DNA from: Deltaproteobacteria bacterium | Lineage (GTDB): Bacteria > Myxococcota_A > UBA796 > UBA9615 | DNA length: 54,064 nt | Assembly (NCBI GenBank): GCA_023954745.1 | Contig: JAGSHC010000011.1 | Location: forward strand, 1-54,064 | Direction: 5' to 3' | Part shown: positions 29,890 to 34,965 of the stretch, piece after piece | Numbering within the stretch: the stretch's first letter is position 1 | Layout of the letters: the number at the start of each line of letters is the position of its first letter | Position numbers and translations under genes: made by a program | The notes under the pieces: model-generated | Seen by the model: the letters and a program-made list of their open reading frames with translations, nothing else | What the model was told of the DNA's origin: nothing | Database searches by the model: none

Positions 29890-30416
29890 CCGTCTGCCCT
29901 CGCGCTTCTCGCCATGTGCCTTCGATGCCGGCGCCGATGCACTCCCCACGCCCATCGCCGCGCCACGGCCCACACGACCAGCGACGCGACGGTGCCCGTC
30001 ACCAGAGACCCCAGACACAGCGTGAAGTAGTCATGGAGGTCGAGGCTGAAGATCGACAGTGGGTCCGACACGAGCTGGCTCGGGTTCCGAAGAGGAGAGT
30101 CGGGGTTGCTCCCAGGAGTGAGAGTGACCCCCACCAACAGGTTCGTCAGCTGAATCGGCGCCACGGTGACGGGGTTGCTCAAGCAGACCATCGCCACCGC
30201 CGCGAGCTTGCTCACCCGAGACCAACTCGCAGTGACCAACGCCGCCGGGAAGTGGAGGAGCCAGATCGGCGTCCAGAGCCAGAACGCCCCCAGAGCGAGT
30301 CCTCCGGCCAGGTAGTCCGCACCCTGCTTGGAACGGAAGGCCCGGTACAAGTTCAGCTTCGCCGGGGCGAAGAGCTTGCTCATGCACGAGCGCGGCTCCC
30401 GACGGGTCCGGTTCAT
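29886..30416 (-). CDS. DUF2062 membrane protein
   Basis: This 176-residue protein has the DUF2062 layout: a short basic N terminus, ALGAFWLWTPIWLLHFPAALV, a Pro-containing second helix (CLSNPVTVAPIQLTNLLVG), and a final helix near FTLCLGSLVTGTVASLVVWAVARRW. A basic Arg/His-rich tail follows. The function is unknown. ATG 30416 overlaps the tsaD stop (ATGA) and its own stop overlaps the rsmA start, so it is translated in series. ATG 30383 is an alternative start. Confidence 0.82.
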   Translation of the reverse strand: MNRTRREPRSCMSKLFAPAKLNLYRAFRSKQGADYLAGGLALGAFWLWTPIWLLHFPAALVTASWSRVSKLAAVAMVCLSNPVTVAPIQLTNLLVGVTLTPGSNPDSPLRNPSQLVSDPLSIFSLDLHDYFTLCLGSLVTGTVASLVVWAVARRWAWGVHRRRHRRHMARSARADG

Positions 30417-31441
30417 GCCCGGACCCCCAGCGCCAATCCGGGAGCGACGTCGACATTGAGGTCCGAGCGCTCGCCCCTCGCCAGGCGCAGCCAGGCCGCA
30501 TAACCGATCATCCCGGCATTGTCGGTGCAGAACCTCATCTCGGGCCGGTGGACCTCCCAGCCTTCTTTGTCCGCCATCTCCGCGATGGCCGAGCGAAGCC
30601 GGGAGTTCGCGGCCACCCCGCCCGTCGCCACCACACGAGTCACCCCGAGCTCGCGGGCGGCCTTGCGCGTCTTGAGGAGGAGCGCATCGACAATGGCTTC
30701 CTGAAGCGAGGCGCAGAAGTCCGCCAGAGCTTGTCCTTCGGGAACACCGTGTTCGTTGATGTGCTTCCAGACGGCAGTCTTCAACCCCGAGAAGGAGAAG
30801 TTGTAGCCGGGCTTCTTGCTCATTCCCCGAGGCAGCGCAACGGCATGGGGGTTCCCCGTCTGAGCCAGCCGGTCCACGTGGACCCCTCCGGGATACGGCA
30901 GACCGAGCAAGCGCGCGCTCTTGTCGAACGCCTCGCCCGCGGCGTCGTCCAGAGTGGAGCCGAGCACCTCGTACTCCCCCACTCCATGGCAATGGACGAG
31001 GGAGGTGTGCCCTCCGCTCACCGTCAGCGCCAAAAAGGGAAACGGTGGCGTCTCCTGGCCGACAAATGATGCGAGGAGGTGTCCCTCGAGGTGATTCACC
31101 CCCAGGAGAGGGATGCCGCGCCCGACCACGAGCCCCTGAGCCCACGCGAGGCCTACGAGCAGGCAGCCCACGAGGCCTGGCCCGCGGGTCACTCCAACCG
31201 ACTTCAGGTCGTCGAGCCTGACGTCGGCCTGGGTCAAGGCCTCTGCGACCACCGCGTCGATCCACTCGATATGGCGCCGCGACGCGAGCTCGGGAACGAC
31301 GCCCCCGAACTCCATGTGATCTTCGATCTGGGATCGAACGACGCAGGAGAGAACGACACCACCGTCGCCGATCACGGCCGCTGACGTCTCGTCGCAGGAC
31401 GTCTCGATGGCGAGTAGCGGGGTGATCGGGGCGTCCGACAT
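30413..31441 (-). CDS. tsaD: tRNA N6-adenosine threonylcarbamoyltransferase TsaD
   Basis: This 342-residue Kae1/TsaD has the ETSCDETSAAV opening, GGVVPELASRRH, the metal-binding HxxxH in NHLEGHLLA, and FPFLALTVSGGHTSLV. It transfers the threonylcarbamoyl group to A37 of ANN-decoding tRNAs with TsaB, TsaC and TsaE. It heads the DUF2062-rsmA operon. A TACACT -10 box 8 nt before ATG suggests its own leaderless promoter within the short gap after the selenoprotein gene. Confidence 0.96.
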   Translation of the reverse strand: MSDAPITPLLAIETSCDETSAAVIGDGGVVLSCVVRSQIEDHMEFGGVVPELASRRHIEWIDAVVAEALTQADVRLDDLKSVGVTRGPGLVGCLLVGLAWAQGLVVGRGIPLLGVNHLEGHLLASFVGQETPPFPFLALTVSGGHTSLVHCHGVGEYEVLGSTLDDAAGEAFDKSARLLGLPYPGGVHVDRLAQTGNPHAVALPRGMSKKPGYNFSFSGLKTAVWKHINEHGVPEGQALADFCASLQEAIVDALLLKTRKAARELGVTRVVATGGVAANSRLRSAIAEMADKEGWEVHRPEMRFCTDNAGMIGYAAWLRLARGERSDLNVDVAPGLALGVRA

Positions 31442-31449
31442 GGAGCCGG

Positions 31450-31455
31450 AGTGTA
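31450..31455 (-). promoter_or_regulatory. -10-like box just before tsaD
   Basis: TACACT on the minus strand (4 of 6) lies 8 nt before the tsaD ATG, within the 19-nt gap after the selenoprotein stop. It fits the leaderless pattern seen at four other genes in this window. Confidence 0.28.
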
Positions 31456-31460
31456 GGGAC

Positions 31461-33170
31461 TCAGTCCTTGTGATCCACCTTGGGGAGATACTCGGCGTGC
31501 ACGAAGCGCCCCTCCGTCTGCTCCTCGGTGTGGCAGGCGAGGCAAACGGCCTCGGTCGGAGCGAGCACGATGTTCTCCTTCGTCGGGGCGGCGGCGTGCG
31601 CCTTCCCGGGACCGTGGCATGACTCGCACTGGACGTTCTTCAGGGGGCCCACCTCGGTAGGCACCTCGGGTCCACCAGGCTGGTTGGCTCCAGTCACGTG
31701 GCAGGACCAGCAGTCGAGATCGTATTGGCGCTGGTCCTTGACCAGACCCGCCCATGCTCGGGAGTGCGGAGTACCCATCCAGTCGGTGTGCTGCTCCTTG
31801 TGGCAGCCCATGCACGCCCGCGCGGTGACGAAGTCGCCGTAGTCCGCCTTCGCCGCGACCTGCGGCTGCCGCACCGTGGCCTTCGCCAGAGCGTCCTTGA
31901 GCTTGTTCCCCGAGTTTCCAGGGCCGAGGAGCAAGAGGTAGCCATCCACCATCTTCGCGATCTCTGGGTCATCAGGCACGTCCCGGCTCATGGGGATGCG
32001 CTTGCCGCGTAGGAGATGGCCCGTCCCACTGTCCTCGGGAGGAATGACGAGGGCCTCGAGCTTCTTCGTCGTGAACGTCCGCACCCGCTCGATCCGCGTC
32101 TTCGCGGAGGGGTTCGTCTCTTGCTCGATCTGCGCGTCGTAGCGCGCCAACTGTTTCTCCAGTTGCGCCTTCTGCCCGAGAAGACGCGCCCGCCCGTCGG
32201 GATCGGCCCAGCCGCTGCCCCCGGGCCGAAGGTCGAGCCGCAGCTCACCGACGTACTTGCTCCGCGACCCAGCCTCGAGCAGCGCGGTGGAGCCCACGAT
32301 GATCGGGTCCTCCTGATGCCGTTTGCTGTGGCCCGTGAACATCAAGTCGATGCCCTCGACCTGCTCTGCCACCTTCTGGGCGTCATCGAAGTTGGTGTGC
32401 ATCAGCACGACCACGAAGTCGACGTTCTGGCTCCGGAGCTCAGCGACCGAGGAGGTCAAGGCGGCGATTGGGTCGTCGAACCGCCCCTCGAGCACCGAGA
32501 GGGTGTCCAGGGTCGCTGCGGTGAGGCCAATTCTGTACTCCCCCTTGGTGACGATGCGGCTCGCGGGGAAGACAAGGTCTCCCGTCTCGGGGTCGCGGAG
32601 GTTGGCGCTGATGTACGGCGCTCCGTGCTTCCGCGCGATCTTGCGCAGCCAGGGGAGGCCGAAGGCGACATCCGACTCCCCGATGCCGAGAGCGTCCATG
32701 CCCATGGCCGTCGTCGCTTCGATGAGCAGCTCGGCCTTGATCTTGCGCTGCTGCTCCTCCTTGGCGGAGACCACCGCGCGCGGCGCGAGCATGTCCCCTG
32801 CGTCCACCTGCAAGATGGGGACGTTCAGAGCGCGGATGGTGTCGAGATACGTTGCTTTCCTGGCGAGACCGCCGAGGGGGTTCTTCGGTCAGCCGCAGGG
32901 TTCGATCTCGCCGTCCACGTTGTTCGTGAACACGACGAGAAGGTCTCCCGGTGGGTCGTCCAGCGCCTTTGCGAGGGGGTCGTTTCCGCCCTTCGTCTTG
33001 GTCTTGTCGCCCGGCTTGAGGGTCTTCACCGTCGAAGGCCGCGTGGCCTCGGGGGTGTCCGCCTGGACTGCGGAGGCCTTCGATGTGGAGACTGAAGGGG
33101 TCAGGGGCTCCTCGGGGGAGCCGCAGCCCACCGCGACGAGGAGCACAACAAGAGCAAAGAACCTAGTCAC
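31461..33170 (-). CDS. UshA-like tetrahaem selenoprotein (UGA = Sec94)
   Basis: One frame runs from GTG 33170 to the stop at 31461, interrupted only by an in-frame TGA at 32891-32889, read here as selenocysteine. The resulting 569-residue protein has a lipoprotein signal (lipobox AVGC, Cys16). A metallophosphatase region resembles UshA/5'-nucleotidase (FTNNVDGEIEPCG-Sec94-PKNPLGGLARK, LQVDAGDML, IGESDVAFG, LMFTGHSKRH). The C-terminal part carries four CxxCH haem sites at residues 453, 487, 515 and 543. Residues 91-94 read P-C-G-Sec; I recall homologs with EPCGC, so Sec replaces a Cys. Several catalytic nucleotidase positions are altered, so a redox role is likelier than nucleotidase. The start overlaps the CpoB-like stop by 8 nt. 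ORF callers would split it at the TGA. Confidence 0.86.
32859..32888 (-). promoter_or_regulatory. Bacterial SECIS element directing UGA recoding
   Basis: Immediately after the UGA (minus strand), CCU-C-GGC pairs with GCC-AGG (32877-32871 with 32864-32859, one bulged C), leaving loop GGUCUC (32870-32865). The loop begins exactly 18 nt after the UGA and opens GGUCU, as I recall for the E. coli fdhF SECIS bound by SelB. This supports Sec insertion rather than a sequencing error. Confidence 0.78.
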
Positions 33171-34140
33171 CGAGGGCCTCCAGCTTCCGCTTCGCGCGTT
33201 CGGCGTCGTCGGAGTTGGGATAGAGACGGACGAGCTCCGCGAAGAAGACCTTCGCAGCCTCGAGGTCGTCGGGGGTGCCCAACTCCTCGAATGCGAGGGC
33301 CTGCATGAACATCGATCGAGGGGCGAAGGGCCCATCCTCGTCGAGCTTGATCGCCTTCTCGTAGGTCGTGATGGATGCCTTGAACCGACCCAGTTCGTAC
33401 AGACACTGTCCCGTGAGGTACTGCGCCTCCACGGCCCGGGTGCTGTCTGGGTAGTTCCGGGTGAACTTCTGAAGACGCGAGCCCGCCTTCTCCCAGTCCT
33501 TCTTCTTCATCAGCAGGAGCGCCTGCTGAAAGAGGACGTCCTCCTCGGAAGGCTCGGCGGACGAGACCACGACCTCGTCGTCGGTGGCCCTGCCAAGGGA
33601 CGCGACAGCGGTCTCCCCCTCGCCAGCTTCGATCTCCGCCTCACCCTCGCCGGCGGTGTCCCCGCTGGCCTCGCCCGCCTCAGCGTCGTCGGCTTCATCG
33701 GACGGGGGCTCATCATCCTGCGGCTCCATGGGAGGCAGGATGAGTGGAGGAGTGATGTCGAGCTCCTTCTCGAGGTGCGTCAGCCGTGCCTCGAGCGCAG
33801 CGAGCCGGAACTCCACCGCCCCCATGGCGCCCTTGTTGTCTTCGAGGCTGTCGTTGAGCTCGGCCGCCTCACCCCGCAGGGCCTGCATCTCCTCGAGGAA
33901 GGTCTCCAGGGTCGCGCCAGAGTCCGCGAGCCTCTGGCGCGAGGTGGCCGCTCGGTCCGCCATGTCGTCGAGACGAGTGACCTGGATCGCGAGGTCCTTT
34001 TCCAGGGTATGTACGCGGAGTCGATTGGAGTCGACCCGGTCCTGGAGGATGTAGCTAGCGCTCTTGCCCGTACGGTCCACGACGCACCCACCGAGGAGTG
34101 CGAGAGCCGCCAGGGCGACCAGGAAACGTGACGCGCTCAT
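33163..34140 (-). CDS. CpoB/YbgF-like TPR lipoprotein of the Tol-Pal system
   Basis: This 325-residue lipoprotein (LLGGC, Cys19) has an N-terminal coiled-coil (about 30-140: LRVHTLEKDLAIQVTRLDDM to LEARLTHLEKEL). A Pro/Asp/Glu/Ala-rich linker follows (about 145-205). The C-terminal TPR repeats (EEDVLFQQALLLMKKKDWEKA to YPNSDDAERAKRKLEAL) match the CpoB/YbgF C-terminal domain. CpoB coordinates outer-membrane constriction with septal peptidoglycan synthesis. ATG 34140 overlaps the Pal stop (ATGA). No tolQRAB genes lie in this window. It differs from E. coli CpoB in being a lipoprotein, as in many Deltaproteobacteria. Confidence 0.82.
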   Translation of the reverse strand: MSASRFLVALAALALLGGCVVDRTGKSASYILQDRVDSNRLRVHTLEKDLAIQVTRLDDMADRAATSRQRLADSGATLETFLEEMQALRGEAAELNDSLEDNKGAMGAVEFRLAALEARLTHLEKELDITPPLILPPMEPQDDEPPSDEADDAEAGEASGDTAGEGEAEIEAGEGETAVASLGRATDDEVVVSSAEPSEEDVLFQQALLLMKKKDWEKAGSRLQKFTRNYPDSTRAVEAQYLTGQCLYELGRFKASITTYEKAIKLDEDGPFAPRSMFMQALAFEELGTPDDLEAAKVFFAELVRLYPNSDDAERAKRKLEALGD

Positions 34141-34874
34141 GGAACGGCGAACTCCACCCGACGGTTCTTGCCCCACACCGACTCGCCGCTGCCCAACACG
34201 GCGGGACGCTCCTCCCCGTAGGAGAGAGTGGTGAGGTTCGCGCTGCCGACACCGACATTGAGCAGGTAGGAGCGCACAGACTCGGCCCGCCGCTGCCCCA
34301 AGGAGAGGTTGTAGATCGTGGACCCGCGCTCGTCGGCGTGGCCCTCGAGGCGCACGGTGCTGTAGCCCCTCTTCTCGATGCATCGGGCGTTCTCCGCCAG
34401 CAACTTGCGAGACTCCGGCAAGAGCGACGACTCGTTGAACGCGAAGAGCACCGTGACGAGGCGGCAGTCCCCATCGGCATCCGCCTTCGCGTTCACGGTG
34501 AACGCGTCGCGGGCCAGGGCCTGCTCGCCATCGGCGCGGACGACGCGGACGTCGTAGGACCCAGCAGCGAGGGTCTCGCTGGCGCGGAAGGTGAACTCGC
34601 TGTCGGACTGCACGTCGAGACCGAGAGCCGGCTCCTTCCCGACGAGCACATCCATTCCCTCCTGGAAGCCTCGCCCCTGCACCGTCACGGTCACCGCACG
34701 TCCCTCGTTGGTTCGGTCGGGGACCAGATCGTCGATGGCGACGGGAGCCTCGACCTCGGAGGGCGTCGGATCAGGAGGCGGCGGAGGTGGCTTCGCCTTG
34801 GGGCAACCCGCGATGAAGAGCACGGCGGCAGCGAGCAGCACGGGTGGCAGTGCGAAACGGCGAGAGGCAATCAC
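34137..34874 (-). CDS. Pal-like peptidoglycan-associated lipoprotein with IPT-like domain
   Basis: This 245-residue lipoprotein (FIAGC, Cys24) has a Pro-rich tether and an IPT/TIG-like beta domain (about 40-125: GRAVTVTVQGRGFQEGMDVLVG). It ends in an OmpA/Pal peptidoglycan-binding domain: FAFNESSLLPESRKLL, LEGHADERGSTIYNLSLGQRRAESV, and terminal KNRRVEFAV. The insertion of an IPT-like domain between tether and Pal domain is unusual. The GTG start at 34874 has a GGAG site 8 nt upstream; an ATG at 34940 would overlap the predicted -10 box. It leads the pal-cpoB-selenoprotein transcription unit. Confidence 0.87.
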   Translation of the reverse strand: MIASRRFALPPVLLAAAVLFIAGCPKAKPPPPPPDPTPSEVEAPVAIDDLVPDRTNEGRAVTVTVQGRGFQEGMDVLVGKEPALGLDVQSDSEFTFRASETLAAGSYDVRVVRADGEQALARDAFTVNAKADADGDCRLVTVLFAFNESSLLPESRKLLAENARCIEKRGYSTVRLEGHADERGSTIYNLSLGQRRAESVRSYLLNVGVGSANLTTLSYGEERPAVLGSGESVWGKNRRVEFAVP

Positions 34875-34936
34875 GAGGGTCACTCCGTCAGCGGGGCACG
34901 AACGGCGCAGGAAGTAAGCGCCCACGGGACGAGGGG

Positions 34937-34965
34937 ACACTAGAGCCCGTGCCCTCGCAGGTCAA
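34937..34965 (-). promoter_or_regulatory. Sigma-70 promoter candidate for the pal-cpoB-selenoprotein operon
   Basis: On the minus strand TTGACC (34965-34960) is 17 bases from TAGTGT (34942-34937), about 60 nt before GTG 34874. It shares TTGACC-N17-TAGnnT with the rpoN promoter candidate and overlaps the alternative ATG 34940, arguing against that start. Confidence 0.5.

Follow-up and report, generated by a model that had tools for sequence, protein, structure and literature searches.

Known relatives of the protein

UshA-like selenoproteins with a CxU motif (COG0737) were listed from Global Ocean Sampling data (Zhang and Gladyshev, 2008; PMC2398784). The family also appears in a 2022 review (PMC9312934) and, as NF041198 with the motif CxU, in a 2026 review (PMC13188914). 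NCBIfam describes NF041198 (UshA_like_PCGU) as ‘UshA-like (seleno)protein’, with a curated cut-off of 275 bits. The first-pass annotation of this DNA had named such a family, which is indeed real and curated. Our literature search found no functional study of it.

The window analysed here is a stretch of 54,064 nucleotides from a Deltaproteobacteria genome (contig JAGSHC010000011.1), and it contains a gene of this type on the minus strand at 31461–33170. The joined protein matches NF041198 with 356.6 bits (E = 2.1e-106; residues 73–553 against positions 20–514 of the 519 in the profile), a score above the cut-off. It has PCG followed by Sec (EPCG-TGA-P) and a tetrahaem C-terminus, a region which is present in nearly all of the NF041198-type members that we read. 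The full-length match, the PCGU motif, the tetrahaem C-terminus and the exchange of Sec and Cys are all shared with the family, and nothing sets the window protein apart; it is almost certainly an additional member of an already catalogued selenoprotein family. With this genome the family gains a class whose genomes nearly all carry the Sec form. What is new here is only the class-wide use of Sec, the conservation of the SECIS, and the argument for a redox rather than a phosphatase role.

A related UshA-like domain occurs in NF049981 (UshA-like selenoprotein family 2), but the window protein matches it weakly (36.9 bits, against a cut-off of 140 bits), and that family is 262 residues long and carries CxxU where the window protein has CxU. 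The fold of the N-terminal domain is common to the SoxB thiosulfohydrolase and to the 5′-nucleotidases UshA and CD73 (Z 31–33); in contrast to these, the window protein has neither conserved metal ligands nor a C-terminal substrate domain, and has haems and the CxU motif in addition. The C-terminus matches the cytochrome c554-type tetrahaem domain (PF13435, 3.8e-13 in Pfam), and the match to cytochrome c554 itself (1bvb) is by profile. Cytochrome c554 has no UshA-like domain and no Sec, whereas in the window protein the tetrahaem part is fused to the UshA-like domain. The combination of a multihaem cytochrome with selenocysteine is also found in ExtKL (NF040886) and in MccSep (PDB 9wt8), on which our literature search found no published paper. 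Both differ in architecture from the window protein, and the match to 9wt8 is weak and limited to the haem region (E 0.002).

One reading frame, one in-frame UGA

The gene is a single frame running from GTG at 33170 to a terminal TGA at 31463–31461, and its sole interruption is the TGA at 32891–32889. Under translation table 11 this gives two ORFs in place of one gene. Read through, the frame encodes 569 amino acids including Sec94, where codon 94 is counted from GTG 33170. The N-terminus (VTRFFALVVLLVAVGCGS; VTRFFALVVLLVAVGC) resembles a lipoprotein signal by eye, with a putative signal peptide (33123–33170, minus strand) whose lipobox ends at Cys16 (VAVG-C). A low-complexity linker follows, and then the sequence GEIEPCG-U-PKNPLGGLARK around the UGA, in which the predicted Sec (32889–32891, minus strand) forms a CxU motif with Cys92; LQVDAGDML lies further downstream. 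The metallophosphatase-like domain (COG0737, UshA N-terminal type) covers approximately residues 78–350 (32121–32939), and four haem-binding sites follow on the same strand: CMGCH (residues 453–457, 31800–31814), CWSCH (487–491, 31698–31712), CESCH (515–519, 31614–31628) and CLACH (543–547, 31530–31544). The first-pass annotation had described a frame split by one TGA, with a lipoprotein signal before it, LQVDAGDML and four CxxCH sites after it, and a domain sequence running straight through; the coordinates and the description are exact, and the NF041198 match is indeed one continuous match across the UGA.

The genome (7.13 Mb in 481 contigs, 100% complete) carries the whole apparatus for selenocysteine that had been suggested as a check on this gene: selA (471 bits), a full-length selB of 651 amino acids with the GTPase domain and winged-helix domains 2 and 3, one tRNA-Sec with anticodon UCA, and two selD genes. 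One of the latter (L010:1477-2532, G000:C52) is itself a selenoprotein gene with an in-frame TGA at VQCAGU, and the other (L011) lacks such a codon. Among the related genomes, those with selA more often have a Sec gene (46/51, against 3/7 of those without; P 0.008, relatedness not corrected). We found no selA in G033 (95% complete, 610 contigs), though it has the UGA gene (L039).

The NF041198 profile was searched over 58 related genomes and the best-hit loci were then read. All 58 have a match, and most best hits contain a single in-frame TGA with no TAA or TAG. The UGA is at the EPCGU-type position in 49 of the 58; the relatives that lack it have Cys wherever position 94 was read, and paralogues and distant relatives have EPCGC, ACGC or PCAC. 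The EPCGC homologues for which the first-pass annotation proposed to look are present. The window's own genome holds two Cys paralogues, one with EACGC and four haems (L022) and one with EPCAC and no haems (L023). In a named genome collection, 303 of the candidate stretches encode relatives, and we read 83 fragments from 80 kept loci. Among these fragments the pattern used gave 35 U and 34 C, the remainder being mostly of VCGC or NCGC type or missing the region. The relatives come from Myxococcota, Desulfobacterota-type bacteria, Acidobacteriota, Planctomycetota, Krumholzibacteriota, Eisenbacteria and others. For 48 of these relatives, the best tree needs three or more switches between Sec and Cys, though the branches forcing more than one switch are weakly supported. 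One Planctomycetia genome has a tandem pair of tetrahaem UshA-like genes, the first with EPCGU (L112:7395-10121).

Downstream of the UGA, at +15 to +34 (32858–32877, minus strand; the U of UGA is 1), the window gene has a hairpin resembling a bacterial SECIS, with a GGCG/CGCC stem (+19–22 and +27–30), a GUCU loop (+23–26) and a predicted energy of −10.2 kcal/mol for GGCG-GUCU-CGCC. Across the Sec genes, a short hairpin carries G22, G23, U24, C25 and U26 in its loop. Of 50 Sec genes, 49 have GGU as the glycine codon at +22–24, whereas 2 of 9 Cys genes do (Fisher P 8e-7), and U24 of this codon is a synonymous third base; the one exception among the Sec genes is a relative with GGA (L031). As GGU makes up 14% of glycine codons in these genes, the excess has a binomial P of 2e-41, relatedness being ignored. 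Of the 50 Sec genes, 47 have a complete four-pair stem in one of two neighbouring registers, as do 3 of the 9 Cys genes, and the stem bases covary (GGGC/GUCC, GGGC/GCCC, GGCG/CGCC). Compared with controls in which synonymous codons were shuffled, the hairpins are modestly more stable (mean z −0.9; p 0.06 for the window gene), so that the case for a SECIS rests on conservation and not on energy. A scan of 32600–33200 against Rfam gave no match, which is uninformative because Rfam has no fitting model for the bacterial SECIS. E. coli fdhF has GGUCU at the same positions. Given that the GGUCU hairpin is kept in the Sec genes and not in the Cys genes, it is very likely a bacterial SECIS, and Sec94 is almost certainly real.

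The two ORFs of table 11 might be two separate genes, or a gene broken by a nonsense mutation, producing a short secreted peptide and a second protein from TTG 32813. We consider this highly improbable. The second ORF would have no export signal, though its haems need to be attached outside the cytoplasm. The same TGA recurs in dozens of genomes, down to approximately 30% identity, and the sequence on either side of it is under purifying conservation; every relative read at position 94 has either UGA or Cys there. A pseudogene was rejected because of this conserved exchange and the bias towards GGU. The first-pass annotation had also raised an error in the reads, which is untenable since the same TGA stands at the same place in independently assembled genomes. 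Read-through alone does not specify the residue inserted, and UGA might instead be decoded as another amino acid, by reassignment to Trp or by near-cognate read-through to Trp or Cys. The chance of this is equally slight: TGA is an ordinary terminator in this genome, including at the end of this gene, and relatives replace the codon only by Cys and never by Trp (reassignment to Trp was rejected on these grounds), while the full Sec machinery and the SECIS-like hairpin are both present. The two apparent ORFs are thus, almost certainly, parts of a single gene in which the internal stop codon is read as selenocysteine, as the first-pass annotation proposed, and its translation as a whole protein is strongly supported by the comparison of sequences.

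A probable redox motif on a metallophosphatase fold

The structure was predicted with ColabFold from 48 relatives (pLDDT 89.1, pTM 0.86). In this confident model, the N-terminal domain has the metallophosphatase fold and matches known structures over approximately 275 residues, with Z values of 33 for 3ivd (an E. coli nucleotidase), about 32 for CD73 and UshA, and 31 for SoxB. The label ‘UshA-like’ given in the first-pass annotation describes the fold only, as the family does not conserve the metal ligands that UshA and SoxB have. In the alignments, the TND-L-H positions of 3ivd are mostly T/S-x-D/N-x-R/K in the family and GNHE becomes G-E-x-D. At the positions of UshA D41/H43, N116/H117 and H254 the family shows no conservation: H43 is replaced by R, K, D and others, N116 by E, P or A, and H117 by R, A or Q. 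Of the dinuclear ligand set (D-x-H, D, N-H, H, H-x-H/Q) only a part is found. The UshA C-terminal substrate domain is absent, and a coiled coil and the tetrahaem domain stand in its place.

The proposed redox residues behave otherwise. Cys92, Gly93 and Sec/Cys94 are invariant in all 48 aligned relatives, a count that is partly selected because one of the two search patterns contained CGC; at the D-x-H, GNHD and GHxH positions, by contrast, residues change freely. The unbiased NF041198 profile search agrees, with a single exception at Cys92 and none at position 94; the exception is L081, in which the first Cys is Thr (EPTGU) and Sec is kept without a Cys partner. The cysteines and histidines of the CxxCH sites are also invariant across the 48. 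Three UshA-like Sec forms (L075, L077 and L081) have no CxxCH at all. Thus neither Cys92 nor the haems are strictly needed by every Sec form.

It could be argued that the protein acts as UshA or SoxB do, as a metal-dependent hydrolase of phosphoesters or sulfur esters, and that Sec and the haems have a secondary role. The similarity of fold and sequence to 5′-nucleotidases and SoxB is consistent with this, as is the retention in the window protein and many relatives of AGD (D123–D126 region), H258 and G280–H281, of which H258 and H281 are found in only about half of the relatives. The lost UshA ligands and the replaced substrate domain speak against it, and we regard such an activity as unlikely; neither phosphatase nor nucleotidase activity should be taken for granted. 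The loss of the metal ligands together with the retention of Cys-Gly-Sec/Cys and four haem sites points to a redox protein built on a phosphatase fold rather than to a nucleotidase.

We therefore favour, with a probability of about 0.93, a single gene with SECIS-directed insertion of Sec94 by SelB, encoding an exported tetrahaem protein with the UshA fold that is likely an oxidoreductase. The product would be an exported and probably lipid-anchored tetrahaem c-type cytochrome, fused to a metallophosphatase-fold domain of the UshA/SoxB type. SelB and tRNA-Sec would decode codon 94 as selenocysteine, directed by the hairpin that begins about 18 nt after the UGA. Sec94 and Cys92 would form a CxU redox pair in a loop next to the position of the D-x-H metal site of UshA, and this pair may exchange electrons with the haems. 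On this evidence the protein is most likely an oxidoreductase of the periplasmic side rather than a phosphoesterase, and its substrate is probably a thiol or other sulfur species, for which kinship with SoxB offers a first guess and no more.

Gene neighbourhood and significance

On one side the gene is flanked by a CpoB/YbgF-like TPR gene and Pal, and on the other by tsaD, ksgA, NAD kinase and recN. The CpoB/YbgF-like ORF directly upstream (33163–34383, minus strand) overlaps the start by 8 bp and is a conserved neighbour in close relatives, and a Pal-like lipoprotein of the OmpA family is encoded further upstream (34137–34940, minus strand). Directly downstream, 19 bp after the stop, is tsaD (30413–31441, minus strand), which is conserved as a neighbour in the class: with flanks of only 1.3–1.5 kb inspected, 30 of the 49 Sec genomes (the window's included) have it downstream at a distance of up to approximately 1.1 kb. 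The order Pal, CpoB/TPR, UshA-like selenoprotein, tsaD and ksgA (30413–34940 in the window) is kept across the class, and a Cys form from Bdellovibrionales (L145) shows that order too for Pal, UshA-like, TsaD and KsgA. This neighbourhood may reflect an old chromosomal order rather than a shared function. Across phyla we found no neighbours conserved beyond clades, and the only hint is the presence of DUF1573 proteins next to some of the relatives. Immediately upstream of the UshA-like gene, anammox and other bacteria have genes for related proteins (L120:6798-7850, L128:5938-6927, L135:567-1886 and L149:6066-7100); the two that were scanned, in L120 and L135, are DUF1573 (HYDIN-like Ig) proteins.

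We tentatively suggest, at somewhat less than even odds, that the whole PCGU/PCGC family consists of proteins that are not phosphoesterases, in which the CxU/C pair replaced the dinuclear metal centre and became wired to the tetrahaem domain, serving electron transfer in the outer envelope with a genetic link to the Pal-CpoB/tsaD region in this class.

Gene calling with table 11 cuts this gene in half and loses its active-site residue. Given that almost every genome of the class carries the Sec form, annotations there are systematically wrong. With the metal ligands lost but Cys-Gly-Sec/Cys and the haems retained, the vague ‘nucleotidase-like’ label can give way to a redox hypothesis that is testable on the natural Cys forms, without the selenium machinery.
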